Below are positions 6,559 through 20,407 of a stretch of DNA of 20,407 nt, one piece after another (position 1 is the stretch's first letter; every line of letters begins with the position of its first letter). Under the pieces are notes generated by a model, which saw nothing but the letters and a program-made list of their open reading frames with translations, did not search any database and was not told the origin of the DNA. Location: positions 1 to 20,407 of IMG/VR virus record IMGVR_UViG_3300042521_004122; one strand, given 5' to 3'. Origin of the DNA: a virus. Both the position numbers and the translations under genes were made by a program.

Positions 6559-6915
6559 GTGGAATATATATATCATATAATTATTCCAAAACATCATGTC
6601 GCTAAAGTAAATGATTGCTTTAGCAAAATATGTAAGACTAAGTCAAAACCCTTTTCTCATAATTTAGCATCAAAAAGTGTTTACAAAGCAACTCATGTTG
6701 CTGCATCTGGTATATCTGAAGAAGAGCTTAGGGTTTTTGAAATAGTTTTACAGCTTGATAGTCCAAATGTTTTTTGGTGGAAAGTTTCCGCTAAAAATGG
6801 AGTACTGGAAGACTGCAACGATGCTGATTGTTTCGTTTATTTGGGCGAAAAAACAGAGTACAAACAGTTGTTCAAAAAAGCAGGCTTCATTTATTTGAGT
6901 AAAGATGATGGGTAA
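6559..6915 (+). CDS. Hypothetical protein upstream of terminase
   Basis: This encodes 118 residues. The GTG at 6559 is the only usable start: no in-frame ATG occurs before or within the frame, and the ATG two bases earlier is out of frame. The nearest purine-rich stretch (AGTAGGGA, 6523-6530) is too far away to be a good ribosome binding site, so initiation looks weak. The chain is mixed alpha/beta with a Trp-rich centre (NVFWWKVSAKNG) and four or five Cys. It overlaps the terminase start by 11 bases. Its position is where a small terminase subunit might be encoded, but I see no helix-turn-helix or other sign of one, so I do not make that call. Confidence 0.55.
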   Translation: MEYIYHIIIPKHHVAKVNDCFSKICKTKSKPFSHNLASKSVYKATHVAASGISEEELRVFEIVLQLDSPNVFWWKVSAKNGVLEDCNDADCFVYLGEKTEYKQLFKKAGFIYLSKDDG

Positions 6916-8779
6916 ATCAGGAAGACCAAAGAAAAAGTCAGATCTCTTTTTAGATCTCGAAGGCTTAAAGGAAGCGGTTAAGAACGTTACAATTACAGCC
7001 GCTGATGCTGGTCGTATTCCTAGTATAATTGAATTTATTGAGTCTGAAAAATATTTGGGGTTAATTCATAGAAAGCCCACTCCTATCGATTTATACCCTT
7101 TTCAGAGAATTATGTTAAAAGCTTTTTATGCTAATAGTGTTGGTAATGAAAATTTATCCCTTTCAGATGAAGAAATAAACTTATGTAAAGAAAATAACTT
7201 TGAAGATGAAGATATAAGTGATTTGTTTTTCAAAAAAGACAACGGAACCACAAAGAGCGAGCTGGTTCTTGTGTGGGGGCGCAGGAGCGGGAAAGACTTT
7301 ATTGTTTCAATATTAGCATGCTATGAGGCAGCAAAACTTCTAGAAGCTCCTGAAGGAGACCCTTATAAGCTTTATGGTTTAGGTTCAGGAGCTCCATTCA
7401 CCATTCTTACTGTTGCAAACAGTTCGGCTCAAGCTCAAGTTTTGTTTAATGAAATAAAAGATAAAATTATTAATAGTTCATATTTTGCTGATAAAATAGT
7501 TCCATCTGGAATTTTATCTGAACAAATTCATTTATTGACTCCTGCGGATAAAGTGCGAAATGCTGAGCTTGCCTCTCGTGGATTGCCTACCAGTCCTGGC
7601 TCTGTAATTATTCGTTGTGGTCACAGTAACTCTGATTCTTTAGCAGGTATTTCTTGCTATTGTTTATTGCTTGATGAAATTGGCTTATATAAGCAAACTG
7701 CTGGTAGTAGCGGCGGAGAAAGTATATACAGAACATTAGCACCTGCCACTGCCACATATGTACGCAAAGAAAAAGTGATTGATCCATATGGAGTGGAATC
7801 TACAAAAGACGTTTATGATGGTAAAATTATATGCATTAGTTCTCCTCGTGGTAAAGAAGGTGTGTTTTATGATTTATATAGGAAAAGTAGTGCAGTATCT
7901 CACAGGGTAATGTGCAAGCTTCCAACATGGAAGGTTAATCCAAACCAGACTCAAGAATTACTTCGTGAAAAATTTGCAAATATGACAGAAGAAGAATTCA
8001 TGATGGAGTTTGGTGCAGAATTTAGTGGCACAGCTGGACAAACTTTCTTTACAAGAGATATGGTTGAAAAGGCATTTAGTAACAATTTGCATCTCAAAGA
8101 TCACGGCGAGGCTGGCTTTACCTATTTTTGCCATTTAGATCCAGCAACTTCTTCTCACAACTATGCTCTTTGTGTTGTCCATAGAGAGCTTTTTGTAAAT
8201 CCAGAAACAAATAAGATGGATTTTAAAGTAAAGGTAGATCATTTGAAGTATTGGCAGCCTGCAGAGGGAAAACCAATTCTTACAGAAGAAGTTGATAATT
8301 ACATTATTAGTTTGAGTAAAAAGTATAATTTTGAACTTGTTACTTTTGATCAATGGAACTCCCAACACAGCATTGACCATCTTAAAAAACATAGTGTTCC
8401 AGCAAAAATGACTAGATTTACAAAAAGATATAAAATTATTATATATGATAATTTATATGACTTATGTTCTGCCGGTAGACTTGATATTCCAGAGCATGAT
8501 TTATTAAAAAATGAAATGTTGTATCTGCAGCGCAGATATACCCCAACTGGATACCGTGTTTTTGCTAAAAAAGACGGCTTGGTAAAAACAGATGATGTTG
8601 TAGATGCTCTGGCTGGTGCAGCTTATTCTTGCATGAATGACACTATGACAAGATTGCCTCAAGGAAAATTAGTTAGATTATCAGTAAATCCTGTAGGAGA
8701 AGATGTTGTCTTTAGAAGCATGTCAGGAGTTCCTATTGGCAATACACTTCAACAACAAAAATGGAGCAAAAGGTTTTAA
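6905..8779 (+). CDS. terL: Terminase large subunit (ATPase-nuclease)
   Basis: This encodes 624 residues, a usual length for TerL. It is the motor and nuclease that packages DNA into the prohead through the portal. The N-terminal ATPase domain shows the terminase variant of Walker A, VWGRRSGKD (about 123-131), Walker B with catalytic Glu in LLLDEIG (254-260), and a coupling motif CISSPRG (310-316). The C-terminal RNase H-like nuclease domain shows FCHLDPATSS (Asp412), LVTFDQW (Asp482) and TDDVVDALAGA (Asp563, Asp564, Asp567). A basic N-terminus (GKSGRPKKK) precedes. ATG codons at 6905 and 6908 are both possible; 6905 overlaps the upstream gene by 11 bases. I see no intein or intron. The [KR]xA[SQ] motif common in the downstream head genes is absent. 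Confidence 0.95.
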   Translation: MMGKSGRPKKKSDLFLDLEGLKEAVKNVTITAADAGRIPSIIEFIESEKYLGLIHRKPTPIDLYPFQRIMLKAFYANSVGNENLSLSDEEINLCKENNFEDEDISDLFFKKDNGTTKSELVLVWGRRSGKDFIVSILACYEAAKLLEAPEGDPYKLYGLGSGAPFTILTVANSSAQAQVLFNEIKDKIINSSYFADKIVPSGILSEQIHLLTPADKVRNAELASRGLPTSPGSVIIRCGHSNSDSLAGISCYCLLLDEIGLYKQTAGSSGGESIYRTLAPATATYVRKEKVIDPYGVESTKDVYDGKIICISSPRGKEGVFYDLYRKSSAVSHRVMCKLPTWKVNPNQTQELLREKFANMTEEEFMMEFGAEFSGTAGQTFFTRDMVEKAFSNNLHLKDHGEAGFTYFCHLDPATSSHNYALCVVHRELFVNPETNKMDFKVKVDHLKYWQPAEGKPILTEEVDNYIISLSKKYNFELVTFDQWNSQHSIDHLKKHSVPAKMTRFTKRYKIIIYDNLYDLCSAGRLDIPEHDLLKNEMLYLQRRYTPTGYRVFAKKDGLVKTDDVVDALAGAAYSCMNDTMTRLPQGKLVRLSVNPVGEDVVFRSMSGVPIGNTLQQQKWSKRF

Positions 8780-8781
8780 AA

Positions 8782-9498
8782 ATGTTTAATTTAAAAAAAT
8801 GGGTCAAATCTTTGTTTTCTGAAAGTGATAATGTAAAAACAGCTAGTTTAGCTTCTGATCTTGATCAGCATAGAAAAGATCAGGGCACTGGAATATCAGA
8901 TGTCCCAGAAATAGCTGAAGCAGTATTGGATAGAGTCGAATCTTCTGATAAAGATGTGACTATCGAAGGCAAGATGAGTAAAGAAAATAAGTCTGATTCT
9001 CAGACTCTTGAAGCTCAAATGGATGAAAAATTAAAATATTCAATAAGAAAAAATGACAATATAAGAGAAGAGGTTCCTAGAATAAATGTTGCAACAGAAA
9101 TGCATGATCAAGCTTATCGTGAAGCTTATTCAAAGGCAGAAAAAAATCTTACTAAGCAAAAAGATTTATTTGAAAAATATATAGGCAAAAAGGGTTCAAA
9201 GCAGGTTCCTGCTAATGTCGCTGATTCTGCTTCTGGTTTGCCAAATAGCCCTGAACGCTTTGTTAATTTTGACGGCGTACCTTCAGAGGATGTAAAGAAA
9301 AACTTGTCTCATATTGGAGACTCTTCTGAAGTTAAGTCAATGCATACTACTGGAGATTTAGATTCTGTTAAAAAGCTAGATGCTGCCGCTTTTTATATAG
9401 CCTACAAAGCTGCATCTGCTGGCAGAGATTTAAATGACAGCGAAAATTCTATTATTAAATCTATAATTGATAAAAAACGAGAGTTACTTTTGTCATGA
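8782..9498 (+). CDS. Hypothetical hydrophilic protein after terminase
   Basis: This encodes 238 residues from the ATG at 8782, which lies three bases after the terminase stop and about eight bases after an AAAAGG. The in-frame ATG at 8761 inside terminase has no such site, so I prefer 8782. The start MFNLKKWVKSLF is amphipathic. Most of the rest is charged and probably disordered or helical, with a Lys/Glu-rich segment (about residues 105-145) and a better ordered C-terminal helix region (AAAFYIAYKAASAGRDL). KTAS at residues 19-22 is a copy of the motif shared by the head genes. I do not recognise the family; a head or scaffold-associated role is inferred from context. Confidence 0.6.
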   Translation: MFNLKKWVKSLFSESDNVKTASLASDLDQHRKDQGTGISDVPEIAEAVLDRVESSDKDVTIEGKMSKENKSDSQTLEAQMDEKLKYSIRKNDNIREEVPRINVATEMHDQAYREAYSKAEKNLTKQKDLFEKYIGKKGSKQVPANVADSASGLPNSPERFVNFDGVPSEDVKKNLSHIGDSSEVKSMHTTGDLDSVKKLDAAAFYIAYKAASAGRDLNDSENSIIKSIIDKKRELLLS

Positions 9499-9935
9499 AA
9501 AAAGTAGCCAGACGTGGCACTGGTTGGCCAGCAGCATTTGAACATCCTCTTGATAGGAAAGATCCATACAAGAGATATGTTGGTCCAAATTCTGGCGAAT
9601 CTCCTAAGTTAACTAGAATTGGAGATCAGGGTTTTCCCGATGAAGCTCCAGACGCGTCTGGATCTATAGGTGGTGCTAGTAAATATGATCATATAGCTCC
9701 AGGCGATCACCCATGGACTGATTTTGATCCAGATGATCCATTTGAGTCCTATGTTGGTAGGGATCAGGGTCAAATGCCATACGGGGAGTCTGGACAAGAG
9801 TTGAATTTTACAACCAATGACGGTCCACTTTCGCGTACTTTTCGCATATTTACTTTGATGGCTGACGATAATAGGGATAGCAAGCCTGAGCAGTTGTCTG
9901 GCAATTTGGCCAAGAAAAGGATTAAAAAAATATGA
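9495..9935 (+). CDS. Hypothetical Asp/Pro/Gly-rich protein with an internal repeat
   Basis: This encodes 146 residues and overlaps the previous gene by four bases (ATGA). The sequence is rich in Asp, Pro, Gly and aromatic residues. It contains two related blocks: DPYKRYVGPNSGESP (about residues 23-37) and DPFESYVGRDQGQMP (about 80-94), a DP[YF]xxYVGxxxGxxP repeat. Basic ends (MKKVARRG and AKKRIKKI) flank an acidic middle. The repeat might bind a repeated partner surface. Function is unknown. It belongs to the coupled chain of genes after terminase. Confidence 0.6.
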   Translation: MKKVARRGTGWPAAFEHPLDRKDPYKRYVGPNSGESPKLTRIGDQGFPDEAPDASGSIGGASKYDHIAPGDHPWTDFDPDDPFESYVGRDQGQMPYGESGQELNFTTNDGPLSRTFRIFTLMADDNRDSKPEQLSGNLAKKRIKKI

Positions 9936-10513
9936 AATTTAGAACAACAGAAAAAATTACCGGAGAAATAGTGCTTGGTGGTTTGAATTTGGTTTTAAAG
10001 CGTGGTGTGTTTTTTGATTTAACTAAAGATAAAATTGGTCACCATGAATTAGTATGGGCAATTCATAACGGCTATGTTGAAGCTATTGATAATGACGCTA
10101 AAAATGCAGCAAATGCAGAAAAGAAAGTTTATACTAACAGTTCAAAAAAAATCATAGTTTCACAATTTCTGAAGAGTCCCCTTAATTCAGGAGACACTGT
10201 TGTCTTGCTGAAAGATGATCCAACATGTGTTGAACTTGATAAGCTTGTTGCTGCTGGTCTGCTTTCTTGCTCTGACGCTTCATCTCCTGCAGCTGAAGCT
10301 AAGCAGGTTAAGGCTCCAGTGGACTCAAAGCCTGAGAAAATTACTGAAACTAGAAAAAGTTTTAAGAAAAAGCCTTCTTCAAAGAAAGAGGACAAAAAGG
10401 ATAATACAGTCGAATCATCAAAAATAACCTCGGATGCTAAGCCTAAGCCTTTCGTTTCAGAACAGAAAACGATTTTCGTAGGCTCAAACAACGAGGAGTT
10501 AGAGCTTGATTAA
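9932..10513 (+). CDS. Hypothetical protein with Lys/Ser-rich tail
   Basis: This encodes 193 residues and starts by ATGA overlap with the upstream gene. The first half looks folded (GEIVLGGLNLVLKRGVFFDLTK, then a His/Trp region HHELVWAIHNGYVEAI). The segment from about residue 60 to 90 carries KKIIVSQFLKSPLNSGDTVVLL. From about residue 92 on it becomes a charged, Lys/Ser/Pro/Ala-rich disordered tail ending in an acidic NNEELELD. The tail could bind DNA or another virion protein. I do not recognise the family. Its final codons carry the ribosome binding site for the small gene that follows. Confidence 0.6.
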   Translation: MKFRTTEKITGEIVLGGLNLVLKRGVFFDLTKDKIGHHELVWAIHNGYVEAIDNDAKNAANAEKKVYTNSSKKIIVSQFLKSPLNSGDTVVLLKDDPTCVELDKLVAAGLLSCSDASSPAAEAKQVKAPVDSKPEKITETRKSFKKKPSSKKEDKKDNTVESSKITSDAKPKPFVSEQKTIFVGSNNEELELD

Positions 10514-10652
10514 ATTTAATTCTAGTACTTTTCAAAATAAACTAAAAAAAGTAAAAAGAAACAATAAGAAAAAATTGTGTCGTTATTTTACTCTTCTGTA
10601 TCCACAAGAGTATGCCTCTGACTTAGTGGGGAAGAAGTGCAATGACTCATGA
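10506..10652 (+). CDS. Small basic protein, 48 residues, TTG start
   Basis: This short reading frame fills what would otherwise be a 128-base gap. The TTG at 10506-10508 overlaps the previous stop and follows GAGGAG (10493-10498) at seven bases; an in-frame TAG at 10500-10502 fixes this as the upstream limit. The frame ends at a TGA inside the next gene, an 11-base overlap. The product has a basic N-terminal half (NKLKKVKRNNKKKLCRYF) and a neutral C-terminal half (TLLYPQEYASDLVGKKC). Two Cys are present. Tight overlaps on both sides and a good ribosome binding site support a real gene. A basic peptide might bind nucleic acid. I do not recognise it. Confidence 0.5.
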   Translation: MIKFNSSTFQNKLKKVKRNNKKKLCRYFTLLYPQEYASDLVGKKCNDS

Positions 10653-11430
10653 TTCAAAATTGCAGGCTATTCAAGCAGAATTAAATTACTATGGATATGC
10701 CATTAATGGATCCCAGATTATTTCTTTAGAAAACAGCTCTGTAGAAAACGTTGATCTTTTTTTGCAAAGGTTATCTGATTTGCAAAAAGAACAAGTAGTA
10801 AAATTAAAAGACGAATGGGAAAAAATTGAGATTAATGTCAAGGCTATTGCTGGTGGTATTACTGTTCATGGGCTCCGTGTTTTGCAAAAATGTTTCAACT
10901 ACGTTAAAAGCAAAAGTCAGCATTCTGTTTTAAAAGATAGGTCTTGTATAAAACATATTAGAAACATTTCATGCATGGCTGCTGATCGCATGAGTCATGC
11001 AACCGCTGAACAAATTGCAGTAGTCCTGTCAAGAATTGAATTGTATGAGTATAACATAAAAAAAATAGGATATCTTAAGTTTTTAATTAGTTCTTATATA
11101 AAAAAACAAAATTCTTCTAATATAAAAATTGCAATAGATATTGATATTAGTTCATCTGTACAGGGTCCTTATTCTAATCTTGATCTTCCAACAGAAGAAA
11201 GAGTATTCAGATGGAGTGATGTAGATGAAGAGACTTATGCAAGACAGGACATGAAGCAAAAGCAAAGAAGATATCAAATGGGTTTAGAAGACAATCAGTC
11301 TAGTGATACAAAGGTTGGATTTTATTGGCGAGAATTACGTAATGAGCCTTATCCATTTCTTAGCGGTTCTGAAGAAATGGGCTATGAAACTTCGTATCCT
11401 TATCGTGCAAATCTGTGGGGTAATCCATGA
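10642..11430 (+). CDS. Hypothetical helical protein
   Basis: This encodes 262 residues; GGGGAAG (10628-10634) is a good ribosome binding site for the ATG at 10642. The N-terminal two thirds look largely helical (LSDLQKEQVVKLKDEWEKIE, and later AEQIAVVLSRIELYEYNIKK), with possible coiled coil near residues 45-70. The C-terminal third is charged and aromatic, with RWSDVDEETYARQDMKQKQR and a Tyr/Pro-rich end (YETSYPYRANLWGNP). I see no transmembrane segment or known catalytic motif. It sits between terminase and portal and may be a virion or assembly factor. Family not recognised. Confidence 0.6.
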   Translation: MTHDSKLQAIQAELNYYGYAINGSQIISLENSSVENVDLFLQRLSDLQKEQVVKLKDEWEKIEINVKAIAGGITVHGLRVLQKCFNYVKSKSQHSVLKDRSCIKHIRNISCMAADRMSHATAEQIAVVLSRIELYEYNIKKIGYLKFLISSYIKKQNSSNIKIAIDIDISSSVQGPYSNLDLPTEERVFRWSDVDEETYARQDMKQKQRRYQMGLEDNQSSDTKVGFYWRELRNEPYPFLSGSEEMGYETSYPYRANLWGNP

Positions 11431-11828
11431 AAAAAGTAAGTCAGTCATCTCTCGTTGATTTTTTGGTAAATAATAAAACTATAAATGTTAGTAATCTAAA
11501 TTTTATTAGCATTCATTCTAGGCAGGCTAAAAATTTATATTCTCTTTTTGTTTCTTCTGTTGATGGAAATTCTAATATAAAAATAGCTAAACCAATTAAT
11601 ATGCATACTACTGACTTTGTTGAGCTGCAGCTTGCTGGTCTTATTAAGGGTGACATGAGTAACGCTGTTATTACCGCAAACGGTGCAAAGCTTTTGGAAA
11701 AAATGATATTGTCTGATGACGATTGTACGTTTGCATTAAAGACCAATGTACATCATAAGGGTTTAGGAAAAGTTAGTGAAAATAATTTTGATGTGCCAAA
11801 AAGGGGCAATTCTATTTTTAGAGCATGA
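11427..11828 (+). CDS. Hypothetical protein, possible winged-helix-like segment
   Basis: This encodes 133 residues with a four-base ATGA overlap upstream and another downstream. The middle (DFVELQLAGLIKGDMSNAVITANGAKLLEKMIL) has the rhythm of a winged-helix end: a helix, a Gly turn, a short strand, then TANGAKLLEKM. That resembles small phage proteins with a DNA-binding wing, but the match is by eye only. The C-terminus is basic and Gly/Asn-rich (HHKGLGKVSENNF). No copy of the shared [KR]xA[SQ] motif is seen. Function is unknown. Confidence 0.55.
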   Translation: MKKVSQSSLVDFLVNNKTINVSNLNFISIHSRQAKNLYSLFVSSVDGNSNIKIAKPINMHTTDFVELQLAGLIKGDMSNAVITANGAKLLEKMILSDDDCTFALKTNVHHKGLGKVSENNFDVPKRGNSIFRA

Positions 11829-12034
11829 TGCAATTAAGTTATAGATATAATAGTGAGAGAGATCGTGCACTATGCTTAGATTTTTTGCGTCACAGTGGTT
11901 TTTGGAATGACATAGAAGTTGAATATTTAAGATCTGCAACAAAAAGATTAGTAATATCTATAGAAAATGAAGATGTTGATGACTTTACTATAAGGGCAAA
12001 ATACAAAGGTTTTAAATTCAATGAAATTGAGTAA
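11825..12034 (+). CDS. Small hypothetical protein
   Basis: This encodes 69 residues (68 if the second ATG at 11828 is used). It overlaps the upstream gene by four bases and the DUF192-containing gene by 14 bases. The sequence MMQLSYRYNSERDRALCLDF continues to a helix and two or three strands (KRLVISIENEDVDDFTIRAKYKG, interrupted by acidic residues), which suggests a small alpha/beta fold. There is one Cys and no recognisable motif. Its tight packing between two genes supports it being real. Confidence 0.55.
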   Translation: MMQLSYRYNSERDRALCLDFLRHSGFWNDIEVEYLRSATKRLVISIENEDVDDFTIRAKYKGFKFNEIE

Positions 12035-12854
12035 CTCAAAAAAAATCTATGTAGAAGTTGCAAAGACCCCGGAACAGCAAAGTCAAGGGTTAATGTTTAG
12101 GAAATCTTTAGATAAAGATAGTGGCATGCTGTTTGTTTTTCAAAATTCAAAACCTTTAAGTTTTTGGGGAATGAATACTTTTATTCCTTTAGACATCGCA
12201 TTTATAGATGAATCTGGAAAAATTCAAGACATTAAAAGAATTAAAGAGCATGATTTGACAAGTGTAAAGTCTTCATGTCCATGCAAATATGCTTTAGAGA
12301 TGGAAGACGGATGGTTCAAGTCAAACGGTTTTTCTGTTGGAGATTATTGTGAGCCTTTATTCAAAAAATTTGACAATTCCGTTGTGCTTATTAAGAATAT
12401 AAAAACTGCTCAAAAAGAAGAAGCTCAGGACGTTGAAGATAAAACTGAAGATTTAGATAAAGATGAAAAAAAACCGGAAGAGACAAAAAAGGAAATAAAA
12501 GTTCCATCTCCAGCTAAGCCTATTCCTAATGTTGTTGTGACTCCTGTGTCAGCCCCAGCAAAACAGGACGTAATTAATATCCCAAAATTTGGCAATATTT
12601 TTGAGGCATTAAGATGGTCTATTTCTAATAATCAAGTTATGAGAGTGACTTATCATACGCAAAAAGGACACACTGTTACTAAAGATATAGAACCTCATCG
12701 TGTTTTCTTTTCCAGGAGTAGTAAGCGTCAGGTTTTAAAAGCATATGACGAAACAGCAGATCATCCAAGCCAATATATAATTATGAATATTGTTTCGTAT
12801 GGATTTCCTGGAAGGAAGTTTATGCCTAAATCAATATTATTAACACGGAGATAG
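12021..12854 (+). CDS. DUF192 domain protein with C-terminal WYL-like domain
   Basis: This encodes 277 residues. Residues about 7-113 match the DUF192/UPF0127 family: VEVAKTPEQQSQGLMFRKSL, GMLFVFQNSKPLSFWGMNTF, IPLDIAFID, then the late CKYALEMEDGWF and NGFSVGD. The biochemical role of DUF192 is not settled. A charged, Pro/Lys/Glu-rich linker (about 130-185) leads to a second domain (about 190-277). There VMRVTYHTQKGHTVTKDIEP, a VLKAYDE strand and YIIMNIVSYGFPG resemble the beta-rich WYL ligand-binding domain. KTAQ at 128-131, a copy of the shared motif, lies at the boundary between domain one and the linker. The start overlaps the upstream gene by 14 bases with AAAGG at 12005-12009. DUF192 is a confident call; WYL is tentative. 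Confidence 0.8.
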   Translation: MKLSNSKKIYVEVAKTPEQQSQGLMFRKSLDKDSGMLFVFQNSKPLSFWGMNTFIPLDIAFIDESGKIQDIKRIKEHDLTSVKSSCPCKYALEMEDGWFKSNGFSVGDYCEPLFKKFDNSVVLIKNIKTAQKEEAQDVEDKTEDLDKDEKKPEETKKEIKVPSPAKPIPNVVVTPVSAPAKQDVINIPKFGNIFEALRWSISNNQVMRVTYHTQKGHTVTKDIEPHRVFFSRSSKRQVLKAYDETADHPSQYIIMNIVSYGFPGRKFMPKSILLTRR

Positions 12855-12859
12855 TGTTT

Positions 12860-13462
12860 ATGATTAATTTAATAAAAGATATAATTTTGACCGCACAAAG
12901 TTTAGAGATCAAGGGGCTTAGCAAGCATGCATCGCAGCTAGATGGCGTTGCAGAATCTTTAACTATGATTAAGCAAGCTCAGTATGATGGTGTTCAAGGC
13001 TACTGGATCAGAAATGGTCGTTGTTTTGACAATTGTTATAGAGAGAAGCGTACAAAAGAAGCAAAAAAGAGTGCACAAGAAATTTGGAGTGAATGTCATG
13101 AAGAGTGGTTAAAATCTCTGATGAGTAATAGTTCTGAATGGGACAAGTACGCCAAAGACTCTTCAAATTCTATGATAAAAATAGCGAAGTCAGAGACAAC
13201 TAATTTTTCTGATGAAATTTTAAAAGATGAAATAAAAGAAAAAGTATCTTCTGGTTTGCCTATTTCAGACGCAGTCCCAATGACTGTTGCTGAAAGAATG
13301 TTTAGTATCCCATGGAAACTTGCTCAAGTGAGTAATGAAGTTGTTGAGATAGCTAGGGAGGTTTCCGAGTCAGATCCCGCCGTTTCTGAGAAACTTTATG
13401 ATTTTGCAGATCAAATTAGACAAGAAAGTTTACATAATTATAGAGACTGCCTTATATCATAA
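12860..13462 (+). CDS. Hypothetical head-region protein with Ala/Leu helical repeats
   Basis: This encodes 200 residues from the ATG at 12860, nine bases after GGAG (12847-12850). The in-frame GTG at 12854 is only three bases from that site, so I reject it. The N-terminus has a helical pattern LTAQSLEIKGLSKHASQLDG followed by VAESLTMIKQAQ, like the LxxAxxLxxKGLxxxAxxLD motif I associate with uncharacterised phage virion proteins. A central segment has conserved-looking aromatic and Cys residues (YWIRNGRCFDNCYREK, then WSECHEEWLKSL). Four copies of the shared motif occur: KHAS, KQAQ, KSAQ and KLAQ. The C-terminal helix contains VSESDPAVSEKLYDFADQIR. Function is unknown. Confidence 0.6.
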   Translation: MINLIKDIILTAQSLEIKGLSKHASQLDGVAESLTMIKQAQYDGVQGYWIRNGRCFDNCYREKRTKEAKKSAQEIWSECHEEWLKSLMSNSSEWDKYAKDSSNSMIKIAKSETTNFSDEILKDEIKEKVSSGLPISDAVPMTVAERMFSIPWKLAQVSNEVVEIAREVSESDPAVSEKLYDFADQIRQESLHNYRDCLIS

Positions 13463-13471
13463 AGGAAAATT

Positions 13472-13479
13472 TATAAATA
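13472..13479 (+). promoter_or_regulatory. TATAAATA late-promoter-like box
   Basis: An exact match to the T4-type late promoter core TATAAATA lies in the 54-base gap 13463-13516, 37 bases before the next ATG. A near-perfect GGAGGA ribosome binding site follows at 13503-13508. The next gene has codon use unlike its neighbours, suggesting high expression. No other exact copy was noticed in the window by eye. Confidence 0.45.
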
Positions 13480-13516
13480 CTTATTAATAAAAAGGACCAT
13501 TTGGAGGAACAACTAT

Positions 13517-14239
13517 ATGCAATTTTTTTCTAACAAAATTTACGTAAACGGATCTCAAAAATCATTCCAAGACCTTATTGATGGTGTCAAGGGTAACGGA
13601 ATGACTAAGGTCGCATCTTCTGCTGAAGCTCCCGTCAAGGAAGCTGGCAAGGAAGCTATGATGGAAAAGACGACTAAGGGCGGTAAGATGCCCAAGGAAG
13701 TGCTGGAGCACTTTAAGGGTAAGTCAGGTGCTTCTGGTAAGTCAGGTGCTTCTGGTAAGTCAGGTGCTTCTGGTAAGTCAGGTGCTTCTGGTAAGTCAGG
13801 CTTAACTTCTGCTCAAAAGAAATTGCCAGCTGCTCTTCAGCAAGCTATCTTAGACAAGAAGAAGGCTGAAGCCAAAGATGATGGCCTAAAAATAGCAAGT
13901 ATTGAAAAGGTTAATGATGATGAAGTTATTTTGACACTAGCAACTTCTCATGAAGCTGGATTTGCTCACGCAGCAACTTCTCATGAAGATGGAGAAGAGG
14001 TTGTTATTGATGATTCAGATGAAGGCAAGAGTGGCAAGAGTGGCAAGAGTGGCAAGGACGAAAAAGAATCTTGCTGGTCTGCAAAAGAATCTTGTTGGTC
14101 TGACAAAATGGCTTCTGAGCAACCAAAGTTTGTCAAGATAGCTAACCTCACCGATAAGCAAAAGTCTCATTTCCGTAAGTATTGGGACAATGTTTGGCCA
14201 AAGGAGTTTATTGAAGCTCTACTTTCTGTACAGAATTAA
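13517..14239 (+). CDS. Collagen-like Gly-x-Ser repeat protein, probably abundant in virion
   Basis: This encodes 240 residues; GGAGGA at 13503-13508 gives strong initiation. Residues 68-97 form an uninterrupted Gly-x-y stretch, alternating GKS and GAS triplets. A second stretch at 170-181 is GKSGKSGKSGKD. Two more small duplications follow: ATSHEAG/ATSHEDG and KESCWSAKESCWSDK. Copies of the shared motif are KVAS (31-34) and KIAS (125-128), with KIAN at 207-210. The C-terminus is aromatic and basic (SHFRKYWDNVWPKEFIEALL). Lysine is mostly AAG and many codons end in C, unlike the AAA-rich flanking genes, which suggests high expression. It could be a decoration, scaffold or fibrous head protein. 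It has few prolines, so a true collagen triple helix is uncertain. Confidence 0.65.
   Translation: MQFFSNKIYVNGSQKSFQDLIDGVKGNGMTKVASSAEAPVKEAGKEAMMEKTTKGGKMPKEVLEHFKGKSGASGKSGASGKSGASGKSGASGKSGLTSAQKKLPAALQQAILDKKKAEAKDDGLKIASIEKVNDDEVILTLATSHEAGFAHAATSHEDGEEVVIDDSDEGKSGKSGKSGKDEKESCWSAKESCWSDKMASEQPKFVKIANLTDKQKSHFRKYWDNVWPKEFIEALLSVQN
13718..13800 (+). repeat. 18-base tandem repeat, four full copies plus a partial
   Basis: The unit GGTAAGTCAGGTGCTTCT is repeated at 13718, 13736, 13754 and 13772 without a single mismatch, then a partial copy from 13790. It encodes GKSGAS. Perfect identity including third positions implies recent expansion or ongoing slippage. Confidence 0.9.
14024..14056 (+). 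repeat. 9-base tandem repeat encoding GKS triplets
   Basis: The unit GGCAAGAGT is repeated three times (14024, 14033, 14042) followed by GGCAAG. It encodes Gly-Lys-Ser with different codons (AAG AGT) from the upstream 18-base repeat (AAG TCA), so the two arrays arose separately. Confidence 0.85.
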
Positions 14240-14250
14240 GGAGCTTTAAT

Positions 14251-14853
14251 ATGGCTATTTTGCCTGTAGGAATTAGGAAAGAAATGCAGACGCAGATGTT
14301 CAGGACGGCGCAATCAGCGCCTCCTGAACCTGCTTCTGCTTATATGCAGGGAGGTCCGTCAGTTCCTCCTGAACAGCCAGCGCCCGTTGCTAATGTTGCT
14401 AAAAATATAGATGATCAAAATATTCGAGATTTTGTAACGGATATTTTGGTAAATAGGCTTGGCGTTCCCGAAAGAACCGTTGACAAAAAGTTAGAAAATT
14501 TAGTTAGTTATTCTATAGCATCGAATGGCGATATCAGCGGATTCTTTATTATTCCTGTTCATACTGGTCAAAAGAAAGTATCTTTGCAAGAGGCAAAACA
14601 AATTGTTTCTGATTTTTGCTCAGCATTCAATGTTGAATGTGAGATAGAACATGGCAAAAATTTTAAAATATCTTTTAAAAGTGTTCCAAAAACTGATATC
14701 CAAGAGCCAACAGATGAAGGTAGTTTAAAGTTTGTTCCAGATGAAAAGGGGACAGCTCAGAAAAAGGTTGCTTCTAGTATTTTTGCAGAACAATTTGAGA
14801 TGCGTAAGACAATGCTTGCAGACACCTTAAAAAGATTGGGATATACAAAATGA
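14251..14853 (+). CDS. Hypothetical head-region protein
   Basis: This encodes 200 residues; the ribosome binding site TAAGGAG overlaps the previous stop. The N-terminal 50 residues are Pro/Ala/Gln-rich and disordered (SAPPEPASAYMQGGPSVPPE). The middle (about 55-143) looks like a folded alpha/beta domain (IRDFVTDILVNRLGV, then SIASNGDISGFFIIPVHTG and AKQIVSDFCSAFNVECEIEH). A C-terminal helix ends LADTLKRLGYTK. Shared-motif copies lie at RTAQ (18-21) and KVAS (172-175), that is, between the ends and the folded core, as might be expected for cleavage of terminal tails. Family not recognised. Confidence 0.6.
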   Translation: MAILPVGIRKEMQTQMFRTAQSAPPEPASAYMQGGPSVPPEQPAPVANVAKNIDDQNIRDFVTDILVNRLGVPERTVDKKLENLVSYSIASNGDISGFFIIPVHTGQKKVSLQEAKQIVSDFCSAFNVECEIEHGKNFKISFKSVPKTDIQEPTDEGSLKFVPDEKGTAQKKVASSIFAEQFEMRKTMLADTLKRLGYTK

Positions 14854-15491
14854 TATTTAAAAACAAAGATGCTGGAAAGTCATCTATATTTAATGAAAAA
14901 TCATCTAAGAGCTCAGAGACTCCAGTAGATCCATCTGTTTTAGAAAGTTTTTTCAGGAAGCAGGTAAGTAAAAAGTCTGCACAATCTGATGGCACTTTAT
15001 TAAATAAAAAAGTTACTAGAAGTTCCTCTACAAGTGACGCGAATGTTCCTGCAGATAATTATTTTGGCAAGTCTTCTTCTAGGTCAATATTCACTCCAGA
15101 CTCAGTGCCAGCTGACAATCAGGTAGGTATTGTTGAGAAAAAATCAGAGTTTTTACCAAATGTCAAGCAAGAAATAGCGCCAGATATTGCTGATGACCTT
15201 ACAAGATTCAAAGGTAATTTTTCTCCAGCTGCAAAGAATGCCGGATCTCACGGATCTATTCGTAAAGACAGAATTAGCTTATTTGATAAGGGTGCTTTTG
15301 ACCGCATAGATACGCCTTCTGCTTCTGAAGAAAAGGTTGCTTCTGTCGAAGAAAAGAAAATATCTAAATCTTTAAGATCTACAGATGTGGTCGAGTCATT
15401 GTGGTCTAAAATTGCTTCTCCTCAATCCGAAAAGCCAAAGTCTGCTAGAGAAAGAGCAATAGATAAATTATTTGGAGATAAAAATGCCTAA
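14850..15491 (+). CDS. Hypothetical disordered Ser/Lys-rich protein
   Basis: This encodes 213 residues with an ATGA overlap upstream. Nearly the whole chain is charged, Ser-rich and low in hydrophobic residues, suggesting a disordered or scaffold-like protein. A short duplication NVPADNYFGK / SVPADNQVGI occurs near residues 65 and 86. The C-terminal 35 residues look like a helix-forming end (DVVESLWSKIASPQSE, then ARERAIDKLFG). Three copies of the shared motif: KSAQ (42-45), KVAS (162-165) and KIAS (187-190). High charge and many candidate cleavage sites would suit an internal scaffold digested by the prohead protease; this is inference. Confidence 0.55.
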   Translation: MIFKNKDAGKSSIFNEKSSKSSETPVDPSVLESFFRKQVSKKSAQSDGTLLNKKVTRSSSTSDANVPADNYFGKSSSRSIFTPDSVPADNQVGIVEKKSEFLPNVKQEIAPDIADDLTRFKGNFSPAAKNAGSHGSIRKDRISLFDKGAFDRIDTPSASEEKVASVEEKKISKSLRSTDVVESLWSKIASPQSEKPKSARERAIDKLFGDKNA

Positions 15492-16479
15492 GTTTAATTT
15501 GTCTAAGTTCGCACAAAAATCTATTGAAATGACTCCTCCTCCCACCATTCAAGGAGCAGAAGAGTTCAGTGACATTGAGATGTCTGATGAGGCGAAAGAT
15601 AGTTCTGGGCTTCTTATGGCTCCAAATAAAGACATTGACACAGAAGTTGAAACCATATCTGTGCCTGTATTTGATAATCATGTTCAAATGTACGAAAAGT
15701 TAAAGTCTTTCGCATATGGCGACATTAAGTCTTCTATGGATGCTGCGTGGAATGAGTACTTTTCTCAATCTATTGGGGCAACTGATATAGCAGACGATTT
15801 TAAAGCTGGATTAAGTCAGTTTTTTGAAGTTGATCCACAGTCAGAAGATGCAGTAGATATAGCTAATAGATTATTTGATATGTATTCAAAAATACATCCT
15901 CCACAAGTTCAGGAAGAAGAGATGGACATCGCTACTGCAAGTACCATGCATGTTATGAAGCTAGCTAGAGATGTGGCAGAGTCTGAAAGAAAGCAGAGTT
16001 CTGTAGGCAAATTTAATCTCACAAAAACAGCTCAACATAAAAGCATTATGCATGGAACTATTATGTCTGGTCCTGGCCAAACCTCTTTAAGTCCATTTAG
16101 TAGAGATATACAAAGTGGCTTGCATTTAGTAGAGCAAAATAAGGGATTTGGCTTGAAAATAGATGACGTTTTAGACATTGATTTTGAAGCCATTTGGCGT
16201 GGCAATGTTATGGACAAGTACAATGCTCCATATCGTGATGCTGAAGGAAATTATGTCGGCGGCTATATTAATAGAAGGTTTGAAGTTAACCGCAATATTC
16301 CAGTTGGCAATAATTTGCAGTTATTGCCTGGAACAAGAGGTCGTCCGTGGATGCCTCAATACTCTACTCTTGAATCAAGAATGGAAGTATTAAGAGGAAA
16401 TGAAGACAAGTTGGTAAACCCAGCTACTTTTAACAAAATTTCCATCGGTCCATTTAACTTAAAAAAAAAGAACAGTTAA
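15484..16479 (+). CDS. Hypothetical head-region protein, zero-frame product
   Basis: This encodes 331 residues. The ATG at 15484, six bases after GGAG (15474-15477), is chosen over the in-frame TTG at 15472; it overlaps the upstream stop by eight bases. The start MPKFNLSKFAQKS is echoed inside the chain by GKFNLTKTAQHKS (about 175-187), and both hold the shared motif. The region between (about 60-140) looks helical and acidic. The second half (about 205-320) looks better folded, with YRDAEGNYVGGYINRRFEVN and a Gly/Pro/Trp segment PGTRGRPWMPQYS. The gene ends in TTA followed by nine A and a G, with a slippery heptamer in the correct phase, and may have a longer product. Family not recognised. 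Confidence 0.65.
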   Translation: MPKFNLSKFAQKSIEMTPPPTIQGAEEFSDIEMSDEAKDSSGLLMAPNKDIDTEVETISVPVFDNHVQMYEKLKSFAYGDIKSSMDAAWNEYFSQSIGATDIADDFKAGLSQFFEVDPQSEDAVDIANRLFDMYSKIHPPQVQEEEMDIATASTMHVMKLARDVAESERKQSSVGKFNLTKTAQHKSIMHGTIMSGPGQTSLSPFSRDIQSGLHLVEQNKGFGLKIDDVLDIDFEAIWRGNVMDKYNAPYRDAEGNYVGGYINRRFEVNRNIPVGNNLQLLPGTRGRPWMPQYSTLESRMEVLRGNEDKLVNPATFNKISIGPFNLKKKNS

Positions 16480-16697
16480 ATCTTAAGTCTGCGTCTAATG
16501 CTTCTACTTCTCCTTTTAATAGGGCATTAGACCGTGCTTTCTCCTTTATGAAACCCGATAAAGGTAATATATATTCTAGACAGAAAAAAATCTGTCCAAT
16601 ATGTAATTCTGATAATTCTGCAGATTCTTCAAAAAACGGTAATAAATGTGTAAATTGCGGATGTGATTTAAGTAATGTTTCCATAACAAGAGTGTAA
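16461..16697 (+). CDS. Zinc-ribbon reading frame, probable -1 frameshift extension
   Basis: This frame is open from base 16458 (a TAA precedes at 16455-16457) to the stop at 16695-16697. After the slip it reads EQLNLKSASNASTSPFNRAL, then DRAFSFMKPDKG, then a four- or five-Cys zinc ribbon: CPIC, 14 residues, CVNCGC. The only ATG is at 16548 and has no ribosome binding site, and the coding-like sequence begins well before it. Fusion to the upstream gene by frameshifting is therefore likelier than independent initiation, giving a 404-residue product. The extension carries its own copy of the shared motif (KSAS). An uncorrected homopolymer error in the A9 run would make the fusion constitutive. 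The stop is five bases before the portal start. Confidence 0.55.
   Translation, partial: KKKEQLNLKSASNASTSPFNRALDRAFSFMKPDKGNIYSRQKKICPICNSDNSADSSKNGNKCVNCGCDLSNVSITRV
16464..16470 (+). promoter_or_regulatory. A AAA AAG slippery heptamer, candidate -1 frameshift site
   Basis: The heptamer A AAA AAG lies in phase with the zero-frame codons (AAA at 16465-16467, AAG at 16468-16470). It is the same slip sequence used in Escherichia coli dnaX. A -1 slip bypasses the TAA at 16477-16479 and continues for 75 codons to the TAA at 16695-16697. A 9-base inverted repeat lies 22 bases downstream. Confidence 0.5.
16493..16532 (+). other. Inverted repeat downstream of the slippery site
   Basis: GTCTAATGC (16493-16501) and GCATTAGAC (16524-16532) are perfect reverse complements with a 22-base loop. 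A hairpin here could stimulate frameshifting, but the 22-base spacer from the heptamer is longer than the usual 5-9 bases and the loop is large. No U-tract follows, so it is not a terminator. Confidence 0.35.
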
Positions 16698-16702
16698 AAT
16701 AA

Positions 16703-18967
16703 ATGGCAAAGTCAATCAATAAAGAACAAGAAACAGGTAACGCAGAACATAATTCTAACTTTGATGTTCGCAAATACGCAAATTCTTCAGCTGTATCTTT
16801 ACCTTTAACAAAAGCTGCTCAATACGTTGGAGGCAATGCCGGGACAATATTTACACAGCCAATGTTTTTTAGCCCTTTGCATACACCACAAAATTGGCAG
16901 ATTGCAAGTAAAAGAAAAGAAGTTTATCAATGGGCTAGATTTTATTACGAAAACGAACCAAAAGCTGCTGCTGGCATAGATTTTTATGCAGGATTCCCAA
17001 TGAATGGCTTTGCACTTGAGTGTAAGGACAAAAAGGTTCTTGCATATTTTGAGCACATGTCGGAAAAACTAAATCTAGAGTATTGGCTTAGAAAAATAAG
17101 TCATGAATATTTTTTGTTGGGTGATGTATTTGTTTTTACAGAAATAGAATGTCCAGTATGTCGTGGCATGGGTCATCTTCCAAATGGTAATATCTGCAAT
17201 CACCCCGATGGGACCATAAAGCGTTTACTAATTTTAAATCCTGATTTTATAGAAGTTCAAAATACTCAGCTTGCAGATGAGCCCACTGTTGCTTTAATTC
17301 CAGACGATGATCTTAAAAGGGTTGTTGCTCAGAAGAAGCCCAAAAATGTTTATGACAGAATTCCAGATTCTATTAAAGAGTATGTATTGTCTGGTAGACC
17401 TATTCCGCTGAGTCCAAGATGCATTAGTCATATACGACACAAGGGTTCTCCATATGGAACTTATGGAGAAAGTTTATTGCGAAGACTGTTTACAATCATT
17501 TCATATAAGACAAAGTTAATGACTGCCAACTGGATTATGGCAGAGCGTCATATCCTTCCTGTAAGAGTTGTTAAAGTTGGCAATGCAGAAAGACCAGCTT
17601 CTGAATTTGATATTGCAGATGTGCAAGGACAACTCGCTGCTGTTGCAAACGATCCTAATCTTACTATTGTGACTCACCATGCATTTGAAATGGATTTTAT
17701 AGGAGCAACTGGTAAAATACACGATATTTCTAATCAGCTTGAAATGATTGGAAAAGAAATGCTGGACGGTCTTATGTTGCCTCAAACTCTTCTTAACGGA
17801 GAAATGGCAGCATATAGCGCTGCTGCAGTTGGCGTTGAGACTTTGATCAGAAGATTAGAAACTTGGCGTATGGAGCTTTCATCTTGGGTTGAAAAAAATA
17901 TCTTTTTACCAGTTGCGCAAATGCAAGGTTTTGTTGATACTCAAAAAAGCAAATTAGTTGGTGAGACTGTATGGCTTTATCCAAAGATGAAATGGAATGA
18001 TTTAAGGTTGCGTGATAATAGTCAGTATTTGCAAGGACTAATGCAGCTTCATGACAAGGGGTTGATATCTTCTCAAAAGCTTCTTACTGAATATAATATT
18101 GATTATGATCAAGAGATCAATAGACTTCGTGAAGAGCAGATTACTGCTGGTAAGGGTGGTCAGGTGATTGGTGGTAGTCCAGATTCAGGTGGCGGAATGG
18201 GCGGTCTTGATTTAGGCCTTGGCGGACCTCCTGGTGGTGGTTTAGATCTTGGCATGGGCGGCGGCGGCATGCCGCCAGGCTTAGCTGGCCCAGGACCTGG
18301 CGCTCCTCCGCCAGGACCTCCAGTGGGTGGCGCTCCTCCAACTCCGCCAATGGGAGCTGCTGCTAGTTCAGACGATATGACCAAGGTTGCTCAATTTTAT
18401 CCAGCTATGGATGGCATGCAATCAGGAGTTGATGCTGGCATGCGCGTATATAAGCGTGGTAAGGAACCAAAACAGAAAAAAGTTGAAGAGCAAGCTCCAG
18501 AGTCAAAACAAATATTTTTGACCAAGCCTGAGCAGAAGTTGTTTAGTATTATCAAGTCTTTGAATATTCCACTAAGACTTTTTGCTCAATATGAGTTTCA
18601 AGTTCCAGGAGAAAAGAATGCGTATCTTTTAGATTTTGCATTCCCTGATATTATGATTAATTTTGAAGCAGACGGAGATTTTTGGCATTCTGACGTAGAT
18701 GCTGTAGAGCGAGACAAGCAAAGAGACATGAAGCTTGCAAATATGGGCTGGCGTGTTGTAAGAATCAAAGAAAGTGCTTTAAACACAAATGTTGAACTTG
18801 TAACGCAAATTATAATAAATAATATTAAAGATACAATAGCTCAAAGAAAAGCATTGATGGCTAAAAAAGCTAGTGTAAATGATGATGAAAGTATTTATTA
18901 CGAAGATGGGGATGAACTAAAAATCACTTATCAAAATTTGATTTATGATAACAGTGACAATTCATAA
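16703..18967 (+). CDS. Portal protein fused to a DUF559/Vsr-like nuclease domain
   Basis: This encodes 754 residues. Residues about 50-480 match a phage portal: RKEVYQWARFYYENEPKAAA (71-90), a clip/wing region with a Cys cluster (C150, C153, C165, H167), YGTYGESLLRRLF (251-263) and the long helix KLMTANWIMAERHILPVRVV. A Gly/Pro/Met linker fills about 484-555. Residues about 604-712 are a PD-(D/E)XK fold of the DUF559/Vsr type: TKPEQKLFSII, AYLLDFAFPD (Asp644), INFEADGDFWH (Glu655, His662), RDMKLANMGWRVVRI. Motif copies KAAQ (37-40), KVAQ (561-564) and KKAS (721-724) lie before the portal core, between linker and nuclease, and after the nuclease. The portal forms the dodecameric DNA entry ring. 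The ribosome binding site is weak. Fusion of a nuclease to a portal is unusual. Confidence 0.85.
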   Translation: MAKSINKEQETGNAEHNSNFDVRKYANSSAVSLPLTKAAQYVGGNAGTIFTQPMFFSPLHTPQNWQIASKRKEVYQWARFYYENEPKAAAGIDFYAGFPMNGFALECKDKKVLAYFEHMSEKLNLEYWLRKISHEYFLLGDVFVFTEIECPVCRGMGHLPNGNICNHPDGTIKRLLILNPDFIEVQNTQLADEPTVALIPDDDLKRVVAQKKPKNVYDRIPDSIKEYVLSGRPIPLSPRCISHIRHKGSPYGTYGESLLRRLFTIISYKTKLMTANWIMAERHILPVRVVKVGNAERPASEFDIADVQGQLAAVANDPNLTIVTHHAFEMDFIGATGKIHDISNQLEMIGKEMLDGLMLPQTLLNGEMAAYSAAAVGVETLIRRLETWRMELSSWVEKNIFLPVAQMQGFVDTQKSKLVGETVWLYPKMKWNDLRLRDNSQYLQGLMQLHDKGLISSQKLLTEYNIDYDQEINRLREEQITAGKGGQVIGGSPDSGGGMGGLDLGLGGPPGGGLDLGMGGGGMPPGLAGPGPGAPPPGPPVGGAPPTPPMGAAASSDDMTKVAQFYPAMDGMQSGVDAGMRVYKRGKEPKQKKVEEQAPESKQIFLTKPEQKLFSIIKSLNIPLRLFAQYEFQVPGEKNAYLLDFAFPDIMINFEADGDFWHSDVDAVERDKQRDMKLANMGWRVVRIKESALNTNVELVTQIIINNIKDTIAQRKALMAKKASVNDDESIYYEDGDELKITYQNLIYDNSDNS

Positions 18968-19031
18968 TATATTCCTGCATTTAAAAGGAAAAACAATATA
19001 TTTTATTAAATGAATATGTTACAAGGTTATT

Positions 19032-19445
19032 ATGATAAAATTATCTGCCAAAAGAATTAAAGATCGCAATATTACTTGGCGTGAAGCTTACTCGGAGCGC
19101 ACAGCACCATTGCACGAAAGATATACGGCAGAAGTAGGGCCCGGATCGTATAGAAGGTGGGAAGGTCATGACTATACTACGAATAGTGATTACTATGTAG
19201 TTTGTAGTCCAGCTCAAACTAAATACGGCGAAAAATCTTATTTTGCTGGTATCAAGAAACTGCCACCATTAGCCGTAAGAGATGTTGTAAAAACATATTC
19301 TCCTTATGGAAAATATTTTACCAATATGGCTTCTGCGTTATCTTTTTTAAAAGAAAAATACGGTATCCCATGGCCAAAGGGTCAAATTAACTACACCGTA
19401 GATAACCTTGAAAATATTGATATTCCTAGATTTGTAAAGGCATAA
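19032..19445 (+). CDS. Hypothetical protein between portal and protease
   Basis: This encodes 137 residues; AAGG at about 19023-19026 serves the ATG. The chain is basic and aromatic, with a Tyr-rich core (YRRWEGHDYTTNSDYYVVCS) followed by KYGEKSYFAGIKKLPPLAVR and a helix plus loop FTNMASALSFLKEKYGIPWP. It has the look of a small folded alpha/beta protein. No copy of the shared motif is present. The location between portal and protease suggests a head-assembly or connector role, but I do not recognise it. The protease start follows two bases after its stop. Confidence 0.6.
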   Translation: MIKLSAKRIKDRNITWREAYSERTAPLHERYTAEVGPGSYRRWEGHDYTTNSDYYVVCSPAQTKYGEKSYFAGIKKLPPLAVRDVVKTYSPYGKYFTNMASALSFLKEKYGIPWPKGQINYTVDNLENIDIPRFVKA

Positions 19446-19447
19446 AA

Positions 19448-20407
19448 ATGGATAAATTCACAATTACATCTGAAAGACAAATAGAGCCATTAAATTTACC
19501 GCAAAATTGGGATGAAATTAATCTTTCTCCTATTCAAAAATTTGCATCAAAAGAAAAAACATTTGATGACCATATAAAGAATATAGACCTTGGCGGATTT
19601 GATATAGTTTCAGCTGTCAAAGAAAATCCAGATCATCTTTTTGTAAAAGTTTTTGCAATTAAGAAAGATGAAGTAAATGACAATGGAGATTATTTTAGTG
19701 AAAATGAATTAAAAAAAGCAGCCAAAACTTTTATTGGAGTTCCTGTATTTGTTAATCACCAAAACGATGACGTTGAAAAGGCTAGAGGTAAAGTTGTTCA
19801 TGCATGGTGGGATGATACTCGTGGTGGAATATATACTATTAATATGGTTGACAAAGTTGCGTATCCAAGACTTGCTAGAGGCATAGAAGCTGGTTACGTC
19901 ACTGGAAGCAGTATGGGCTGTAGTGTAAAGTATTCTTGCTGCTCTGTATGTCATACACGCGCTGCAAATGCAAAAGAATATTGCTCTCATATTAGAGAAA
20001 GAAAAAAGAAAAATTATACTGGAGATCATGAATGTGAATATCACAAAAGTGCCAATGCGGGTGAAGAGCCATGTCCAGTGTGTGGATGCAAAAAGGGAGA
20101 AAAGAAACACAACAAGTTTGCCAGTCAACAGATATTTGAGCATAACTATGGTGTTAAATTTATAGAAGACAGTTTTGTTGTCAACCCAGCATGTCATGAC
20201 TGCTTAGTAAGTGATATTATAAACCCCACTGGCTTACTTAAGAAGGTGGCAGACCTTCGTGACACTCTTGCTAAGATTGGAACTTCCATGGACCAAGACT
20301 CTTCATTTGGCATGGAATGTGCTTCTGGACAATGCAGCTTGCATAAAGCTGCAGGTAAGCAAGAAATCAATGAATTAAATGATGCGATGAACCAGCTTGA
20401 GCGTGTT
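19448..20407 (+). CDS. Prohead protease, 3' truncated by the window edge
   Basis: The first 320 residues are present and the frame runs off the end. Residues about 64-160 fit the assemblin-type serine protease of phage heads: LFVKVFAIKKDEVNDNGDYF, VFVNHQNDD (candidate catalytic His104), AYPRLARGIEAGYVTGSSMG (candidate Ser155). A Cys/His cluster follows, CSVCHTRAANAKEYCSH (165-181), of a kind I associate with this protease family in large phages. A second cluster, C196, H199, C209, C212, C214, may bind zinc. KFAS occurs at 31-34 and 223-226, possible self-cleavage sites. The enzyme would process head proteins after prohead assembly. The start is two bases after the preceding stop, with a purine-rich AAAAA but no clear GGAG. 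A scaffold region may lie downstream. Confidence 0.8.
   Translation, partial: MDKFTITSERQIEPLNLPQNWDEINLSPIQKFASKEKTFDDHIKNIDLGGFDIVSAVKENPDHLFVKVFAIKKDEVNDNGDYFSENELKKAAKTFIGVPVFVNHQNDDVEKARGKVVHAWWDDTRGGIYTINMVDKVAYPRLARGIEAGYVTGSSMGCSVKYSCCSVCHTRAANAKEYCSHIRERKKKNYTGDHECEYHKSANAGEEPCPVCGCKKGEKKHNKFASQQIFEHNYGVKFIEDSFVVNPACHDCLVSDIINPTGLLKKVADLRDTLAKIGTSMDQDSSFGMECASGQCSLHKAAGKQEINELNDAMNQLERV

Follow-up and report, generated by a model that had tools for sequence, protein, structure and literature searches.

What does a four-residue motif, lysine-x-alanine followed by serine or glutamine (K-x-A-[S/Q]), do in the head-region proteins of the phage represented by the 20.4-kb virus record IMGVR_UViG_3300042521_004122, the whole 20,407-nucleotide stretch of which is called the window here? 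A preliminary description of this DNA had proposed that a [KR]-x-A-[SQ] motif marks these proteins as the cleavage signal of the prohead protease, with a head-targeting tag as the alternative. Our sequence comparisons make it quite probable that K-x-A-[S/Q], preferably with leucine or methionine two residues before the lysine, acts as the recognition and cleavage signal of the prohead protease of this lineage. The bond cut would most likely be that between the alanine and the serine or glutamine (K-x-A↓[S/Q]), with lysine at P3, the variable residue at P2, alanine at P1 and serine or glutamine at P1'. The window lies entirely within a 38.5-kb contig (G001), and a 30.4-kb contig (G003) overlaps it from nt 5571 and extends about 15.5 kb past its downstream end; relatives include contigs of 164-173 kb and others of 296, 476 and 548 kb.

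Motif enrichment in head-interior genes

Enrichment was expressed as the number of K.A[SQ] matches observed against that expected from shuffles of each protein, in which that protein's composition is preserved; open reading frames (ORFs) of the relatives were called mechanically, and their contigs are mostly fragments. The head cassette of the window carries 21 copies where 3.5 were expected (the maximum in 200 shuffles was 8), in line with the preliminary description, which had estimated that chance would give a few, and the window genes outside the cassette carry none (1.0 expected). When nine relatives were pooled, their head genes yielded 300 copies against 42.7 expected, and all their other genes (227,000 residues) 104 against 92.5. 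Full-genome counts against shuffled controls likewise limit the excess to head genes: these have 22 copies against 5.3 in the 548-kb relative, whose 705 remaining genes have 63 against 61.2, and 13 against 3.1 in phage G, the complete genome of which has 71 against 55.3 in the rest.

Disordered proteins rich in K, A and S might generate such a motif by composition, and the head proteins do contain much K, A, S and Q as well as disordered parts. This explanation is, however, hardly credible, as the excess of 300 over 42.7 is what composition-preserving shuffles still leave, the sites are conserved in position (see below), and permutations of the same letters stay near expectation: these were unenriched or weakly so, with absolute z values of 3 or less, whereas z reaches 33.6 for K.A[SQ] and 40 for [LM].K.A[SQ]. 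When all gapped patterns of three residues were scanned without specifying the motif, K.AS and K.AQ ranked first and second. L or M two residues upstream of the lysine is strongly favoured in head genes ([LM].K.A[SQ], 82 against 3.6 expected). Lysine is required at P3: across the head genes of 8 genomes, K.A[SQ] occurs 259 times (38.2 expected) and R.A[SQ] 29 times (18.5 expected). The lysine form of the earlier pattern is hence upheld, and [KR] at P3 was dropped because arginine is barely enriched.

All motif copies named in the preliminary description do exist, including the KSAS of the predicted frameshift extension (nt 16485-16496), but KAAS (9406), KMAS (14105) and RPAS (17591) had been overlooked; the last of these, at portal residue 297 and within the portal fold, is probably not a site. 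The statement that the terminase, fibre, glycine-rich, methyltransferase and glycosyltransferase genes have no copy is correct for K.A[SQ], but not quite for the arginine form, since the glycine-rich genes have RYAS (3388) and RGAS (4324).

No K.A[SQ] enrichment was seen in the terminase, nor in the capsid and tail genes downstream of the polyprotein gene described below (7 against 9.5, 17 against 12.6 and 7 against 9.2 expected). Because these downstream genes are at chance level, the motif marks the head interior and not virion proteins generally. The idea that the capsid gene might have a copy near its N-terminus was not borne out, as there is none in the downstream capsid gene, and the capsid protein itself would remain uncut. 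Further out, [KR].A[SQ] is at chance in the head region of virus Rctr197k except in its polyprotein homologue (6 against 1.4 expected), and the cluster C mycobacteriophage Breeniome shows a modest K.A[SQ] excess (8 against 2.4); whether the motif is conserved as far out as Breeniome is uncertain.

Candidate sites and the presumed protease-scaffold polyprotein

The protease gene, which lies after the portal gene (16703) and before the major capsid protein gene (in G003) and thus where a prohead protease is expected, encodes in G003 a single protein of 1,925 residues with about 21 motif copies. The protease is followed by mostly low-confidence, acidic and helical regions, such as a scaffold would be expected to have, and this part is presumably the scaffold. 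The protease resembles the head maturation protease family phrog_18299 (E 3.6e-13) and phrog_4523 (E 0.0028), and matches Peptidase_S78_2 below the cut-off of that profile; a PDB profile search with the protease gave no match. His104 and Ser155 are invariant in all 13 polyproteins compared and, judged by position only, would be the catalytic residues. The best fold match of the low-confidence protease model is human cytomegalovirus (HCMV) assemblin (probability 0.97, E 0.084), and several HCMV protease chains are among the top matches.

Across the 13 aligned polyproteins, 68% of comparisons retain the K and A of a motif copy and 52% its S/Q, compared to 30% for the x position and 26-36% for the immediate flanks; outside the motif, the same polyproteins keep K in 41%, A in 43% and S in 30%. 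One site is present in 13 of 13 homologues, as KQAQ, KRAQ, KKAQ, REAQ, KEAQ or KSAQ, and others in 12, 12 and 10, and three sites in the window genes are kept in all nine aligned sequences. The motif thus has the fixed P3 and P1 and the free P2 of known prohead-protease motifs, as K and A are conserved and x drifts. The presumed P1 is alanine and not glutamate, and no x-E pattern ranked near the top of the three-residue scan. Our literature search found no published prohead-protease motif with Lys and Ala.

The placement of the copies at domain boundaries, as proposed in the preliminary description, also holds, although in a small sample that relies on hidden Markov model (HMM) domain envelopes only: wherever such envelopes exist, the lysine sites fall outside them, both on the two flanks of the protease (residues 31 and 223) and in the portal (37, 561 and 721), and the KTAQ at residue 128 of ORF 12021-12854 separates the DUF192 domain (9-108) from the WYL-like domain (193-249). 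The joining of a DUF192 protein to a WYL-like domain in a phage head cassette is itself worth noting.

A docking or targeting signal that recruits proteins to the prohead, for example by binding the capsid protein or the scaffold, and that is never cut, would also account for a motif confined to proteins expected within the prohead, and for the identical K-x-A core found in the N-terminal leaders of unrelated proteins (see below). One copy, however, would suffice for a pure tag, and the copies are instead spread evenly along the proteins (flat by decile); one polyprotein alone has about 21, several copies lie at C-termini, and the protease domain has one on each side. Their P3-x-P1-P1' layout, moreover, is that of known prohead-protease motifs (PMC10052503). 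We therefore regard docking without cleavage as improbable. Specificity for the head interior, many copies including mid-chain and C-terminal ones, conserved positions with drift at P2 and this layout all point to the cleavage signal that had been proposed at the outset.

If so, the protease would be synthesized at the N-terminal end of a protease-scaffold polyprotein of about 1,900 residues, and inside the prohead it would release itself through the sites at residues 31 and 223 and cut the scaffold part into pieces at about 20 more sites. The small inner-head proteins would be trimmed as well, and so would the portal, which would lose an N-terminal peptide and release the nuclease-like domain at its C-terminus.

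Several points weigh against this proposal. The presumed P1 alanine is unlike the glutamate of the T4, phiKZ and SPN3US proteases, and the fold match to HCMV assemblin has a poor E-value (0.084). Only 64 of 135 head-cassette proteins have a copy, several copies lie in predicted helices, and the AlphaFold models are weak (mean pLDDT, the predicted local distance difference test score, of 52 and 48), so that placement in linkers can be judged clearly only next to HMM-defined domains. Should the proposal be correct, it would suggest a prohead protease specific for cutting after Ala instead of Glu, nearer to herpesvirus assemblin. It would also make head maturation legible from sequence in a phage group that is among the largest known (contigs up to 548 kb, plus phage G), so that head-processed proteins could be predicted.

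N-terminal leaders with a K-x-A core

When motif copies outside the head genes were checked, an N-terminal leader surfaced, M-N-W-Y-K-x-A, after which Q is frequent. Viral contigs scanned for the pattern gave 27 stretches with MNWYKxAQ and 1 with MNWYKxAE, P1' counts that are biased toward Q, and bacterial genomes totalling 257 billion bases gave 4 stretches with MNWYKxAQ. Among the matches listed, 46 MNWYKxA proteins were aligned, and the leader provided the only invariant columns; the domains behind it include G6PD, Tad6 anti-Thoeris, ADP-ribosyltransferase (ART), cREC, GNAT, kinase/zeta-like, UvrD and cell-wall hydrolase. In the phage of the window, the form MNWYKTAN is found on a gene similar to CCA-adding enzymes, downstream of the capsid gene. 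Roughly a dozen phage G proteins, some with ART-like starts, carry instead MKRLxKxA or a variant close to it, and the N-termini of this phage show [LMW].K.A 15 times against 3.9 expected. A literature search for MNWYK returned no relevant paper, and neither motif nor leader was found in the papers searched.

In T4, a short N-terminal leader common to internal proteins is removed at a protease motif (Mullaney and Black 1996, as cited in PMC9024508), and the internal proteins include the injected ADP-ribosyltransferase Alt (PMC9503650). By analogy, our working hypothesis is that the leader is a capsid-targeting sequence for injected cargo, removed by the protease. There would then be two signals with a common core: K-x-A-[S/Q], which is cleaved, and the MNWYKxA leader (MKRLxKxA in phage G), which also targets proteins to the capsid and has a cleavage site at its end, as in T4. 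We lean slightly toward this view: MNWYKxAQ outnumbers MNWYKxAE in viral contigs and is rare in bacterial genomes, the polyprotein and the capsid protein of the phage family of the window are also encoded on 10 of the 21 contigs with the leader, the leader-bearing proteins are mutually unrelated, and no N-terminal tetrapeptide is commoner than MNWY in the contig G043 or than MKRL in phage G. The S or Q after the alanine, however, is often missing from leaders (N, K, T and D are also seen), a generic excess of N-terminal K-x-A is clear only in phage G, the other 11 leader contigs show no head genes (which may reflect fragmentation), and the leader could send proteins to another location. The two-signal view extends the cleavage explanation and does not oppose it; the targeting tag first offered as an alternative would have its counterpart in a separate leader ending in the K-x-A core, and looks complementary to cleavage instead of competing with it.

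MNWYK-led genes also occur in groups of 3-5 adjacent genes (L134, L135, L145 and L152; G043 at about 425-433 kb and at 485-489 kb), and such runs are possible cargo islands. Further repeated leaders (MRTIRTAGYK, MKVIRTSGWK and MRVIRTAGWE) are present on unrelated small genes adjoining MNWYK-led ones, downstream of the capsid gene (G035, L187-L189), and MKIYRIA-like starts were seen in G036.

More broadly, there is about an even chance that virion packaging in the huge members of the phage G lineage follows a shared modular code, in which the K-x-A↓[S/Q] signal combines with a leader that directs unrelated enzymes by the dozen, ADP-ribosyltransferases and Tad6 among them, into the head, to be injected with the DNA. 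In that case, the effectors that uncultured giant phages inject, which may include counter-defence proteins, could be predicted from the leader alone. Head-packaged ARTs have been proposed for jumbo phages, and phage G encodes at least ten ARTs (PMC9503650); the leader would be a possible route for them, and, as phage G is cultured, the cargo injected by giant phages is now open to testing.

Gene neighbourhood and known systems

The coordinates of the motif copies and of the genes that carry them are collected in the table. Past the end of the window, the polyprotein gene is followed in G003 by a small protein, possibly a decoration protein, and then by the major capsid protein (phrog_2522, E 2.5e-63), whose nearest match among solved structures is gp27 of phage G (6wkk, E 4e-90). 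The DUF559/MTES_1575 endonuclease-like domain at the C-terminus of the portal (18520-18830) has a motif copy on either side, and cutting at these would free a nuclease within the head. A conserved A run (TTAAAAAAAAAG) is present at the end of ORF 15472-16479 (16460-16695), past which the -1 frame continues as a zinc-ribbon tail (CPICNSDNSADSSKNGNKCVNC). Because this arrangement recurs in most relatives, it is likely a programmed frameshift; in the extension, K-x-A is kept at the place equivalent to KSAS in most relatives (KTAS, KQAQ, KFAN, KTAA and KVAD). Inteins with LAGLIDADG domains lie within the terminase of one relative (G013, L046:948-4022) and in the split portals of others (G022 portal, L071:14690-19243).

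Table. Genes and K-x-A-[S/Q] copies of the window, with their conservation among aligned homologues.
Feature	Position (nt)	Strand	Conservation or support
Terminase	6905-8779		
Cassette of small head genes	8761-16479		
KTAS, residue 26 of the 245-residue head-cassette protein (ORF 8761-9498)	8836-8847	+	5/7 aligned (KTAS/KVAS/KKAS/KSAS)
KAAS, residue 216 of ORF 8761-9498	9406-9417	+	3/7 aligned
KTAQ, residue 128 of ORF 12021-12854	12402-12413	+	K-x-A-Q in 5/9 aligned
KHAS, ORF 12854-13462	12923-12934	+	
KQAQ, ORF 12854-13462	12971-12982	+	9/9 aligned (KQAQ/KTAQ/KVAQ)
KSAQ, ORF 12854-13462	13067-13078	+	
KLAQ, ORF 12854-13462	13316-13327	+	
KVAS, residue 31 of collagen-like ORF 13517-14239	13607-13618	+	6/7 aligned (KVAS/KEAS/KQAS/KTAS)
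KIAS, ORF 13517-14239	13889-13900	+	
KMAS, ORF 13517-14239	14105-14116	+	
RTAQ, ORF 14251-14853	14302-14313	+	arginine form, less certain; RTAQ/REAQ in close relatives
KVAS, close to C-terminus of ORF 14251-14853	14764-14775	+	
KSAQ, ORF 14850-15491	14973-14984	+	
KVAS, ORF 14850-15491	15333-15344	+	
KIAS, ORF 14850-15491	15408-15419	+	
KFAQ, N-terminus (FNLSKFAQ) of ORF 15472-16479	15505-15516	+	8/9 aligned
KTAQ, ORF 15472-16479	16024-16035	+	9/9 aligned
KSAS, predicted -1 frameshift extension (zinc-ribbon tail) of ORF 15472-16479	16485-16496	+	
Portal with C-terminal DUF559/MTES_1575 nuclease-like domain	16703-18967	+	phrog_16240 E 3.8e-43; DUF559 E 3.3e-7
KAAQ, portal residue 37, before portal domain	16811-16822	+	K/R-x-A-Q in 9/9 aligned
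KVAQ, portal residue 561, linker preceding DUF559-like domain (607-708)	18383-18394	+	
KKAS, portal residue 721, past DUF559-like domain	18863-18874	+	
Prohead protease/presumed scaffold polyprotein, N-terminal 320 residues	19448-20407	+	window stops within gene; 1,925 residues in G003
KFAS, residue 31, directly before protease domain	19538-19549	+	12/13 polyproteins
KFAS, residue 223, past protease core and its Cys-rich insertion	20114-20125	+	6/13 polyproteins

Among known systems, T4 gp21 is similar in that the protease clears scaffold and internal proteins and the leader ends in a protease motif. The T4 protease and scaffold are encoded by separate genes. T4 differs from the phage studied here in its leader sequence, the function of our leader being putative, and in cutting after Glu, as phiKZ also does (PMC5694885). 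The SPN3US prohead protease gp245 recognizes A-x-E↓S, serine being the preferred P1' residue (PMC10052503), and thus shares with our motif its shortness, the fixed P3 and P1, the free P2 and the Ser at P1'; in SPN3US, too, several head and ejection proteins are processed, multiple motif copies occur within propeptides and the protease cuts itself (PMC10052503, PMC5694885). SPN3US, however, cuts after Glu, whereas our lineage has Lys at P3 and a presumed Ala at P1, and its cuts define N-terminal propeptides (save for the C-terminal cut of the protease itself), whereas here the copies run through whole proteins and the fused presumed scaffold.

Herpesvirus assemblin (UL80/UL26-type) is alike in that its protease is fused in one chain to a scaffold, as is presumed here, and is the best fold match, with a weak E-value. 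Assemblin cuts after Ala and before Ser, at two main cleavage sites in the protease-scaffold protein, compared to about 21 copies in our lineage; to our knowledge its sites do not, as a rule, have Lys at P3, and the PDB profile search gave no sequence-level match. Bacillus phage G is also similar. Although its protease is a separate gene of 300 residues and not a polyprotein of 1,900, and its leader is MKRLxKxA and not MNWYKxA, its portal (gp14, 31% identical), protease (gp19, 45% identical in the core) and capsid protein (gp27) are homologous to those described here, which places the latter in a phage G-like head lineage, and its head genes show the K-x-A-[S/Q] excess too.

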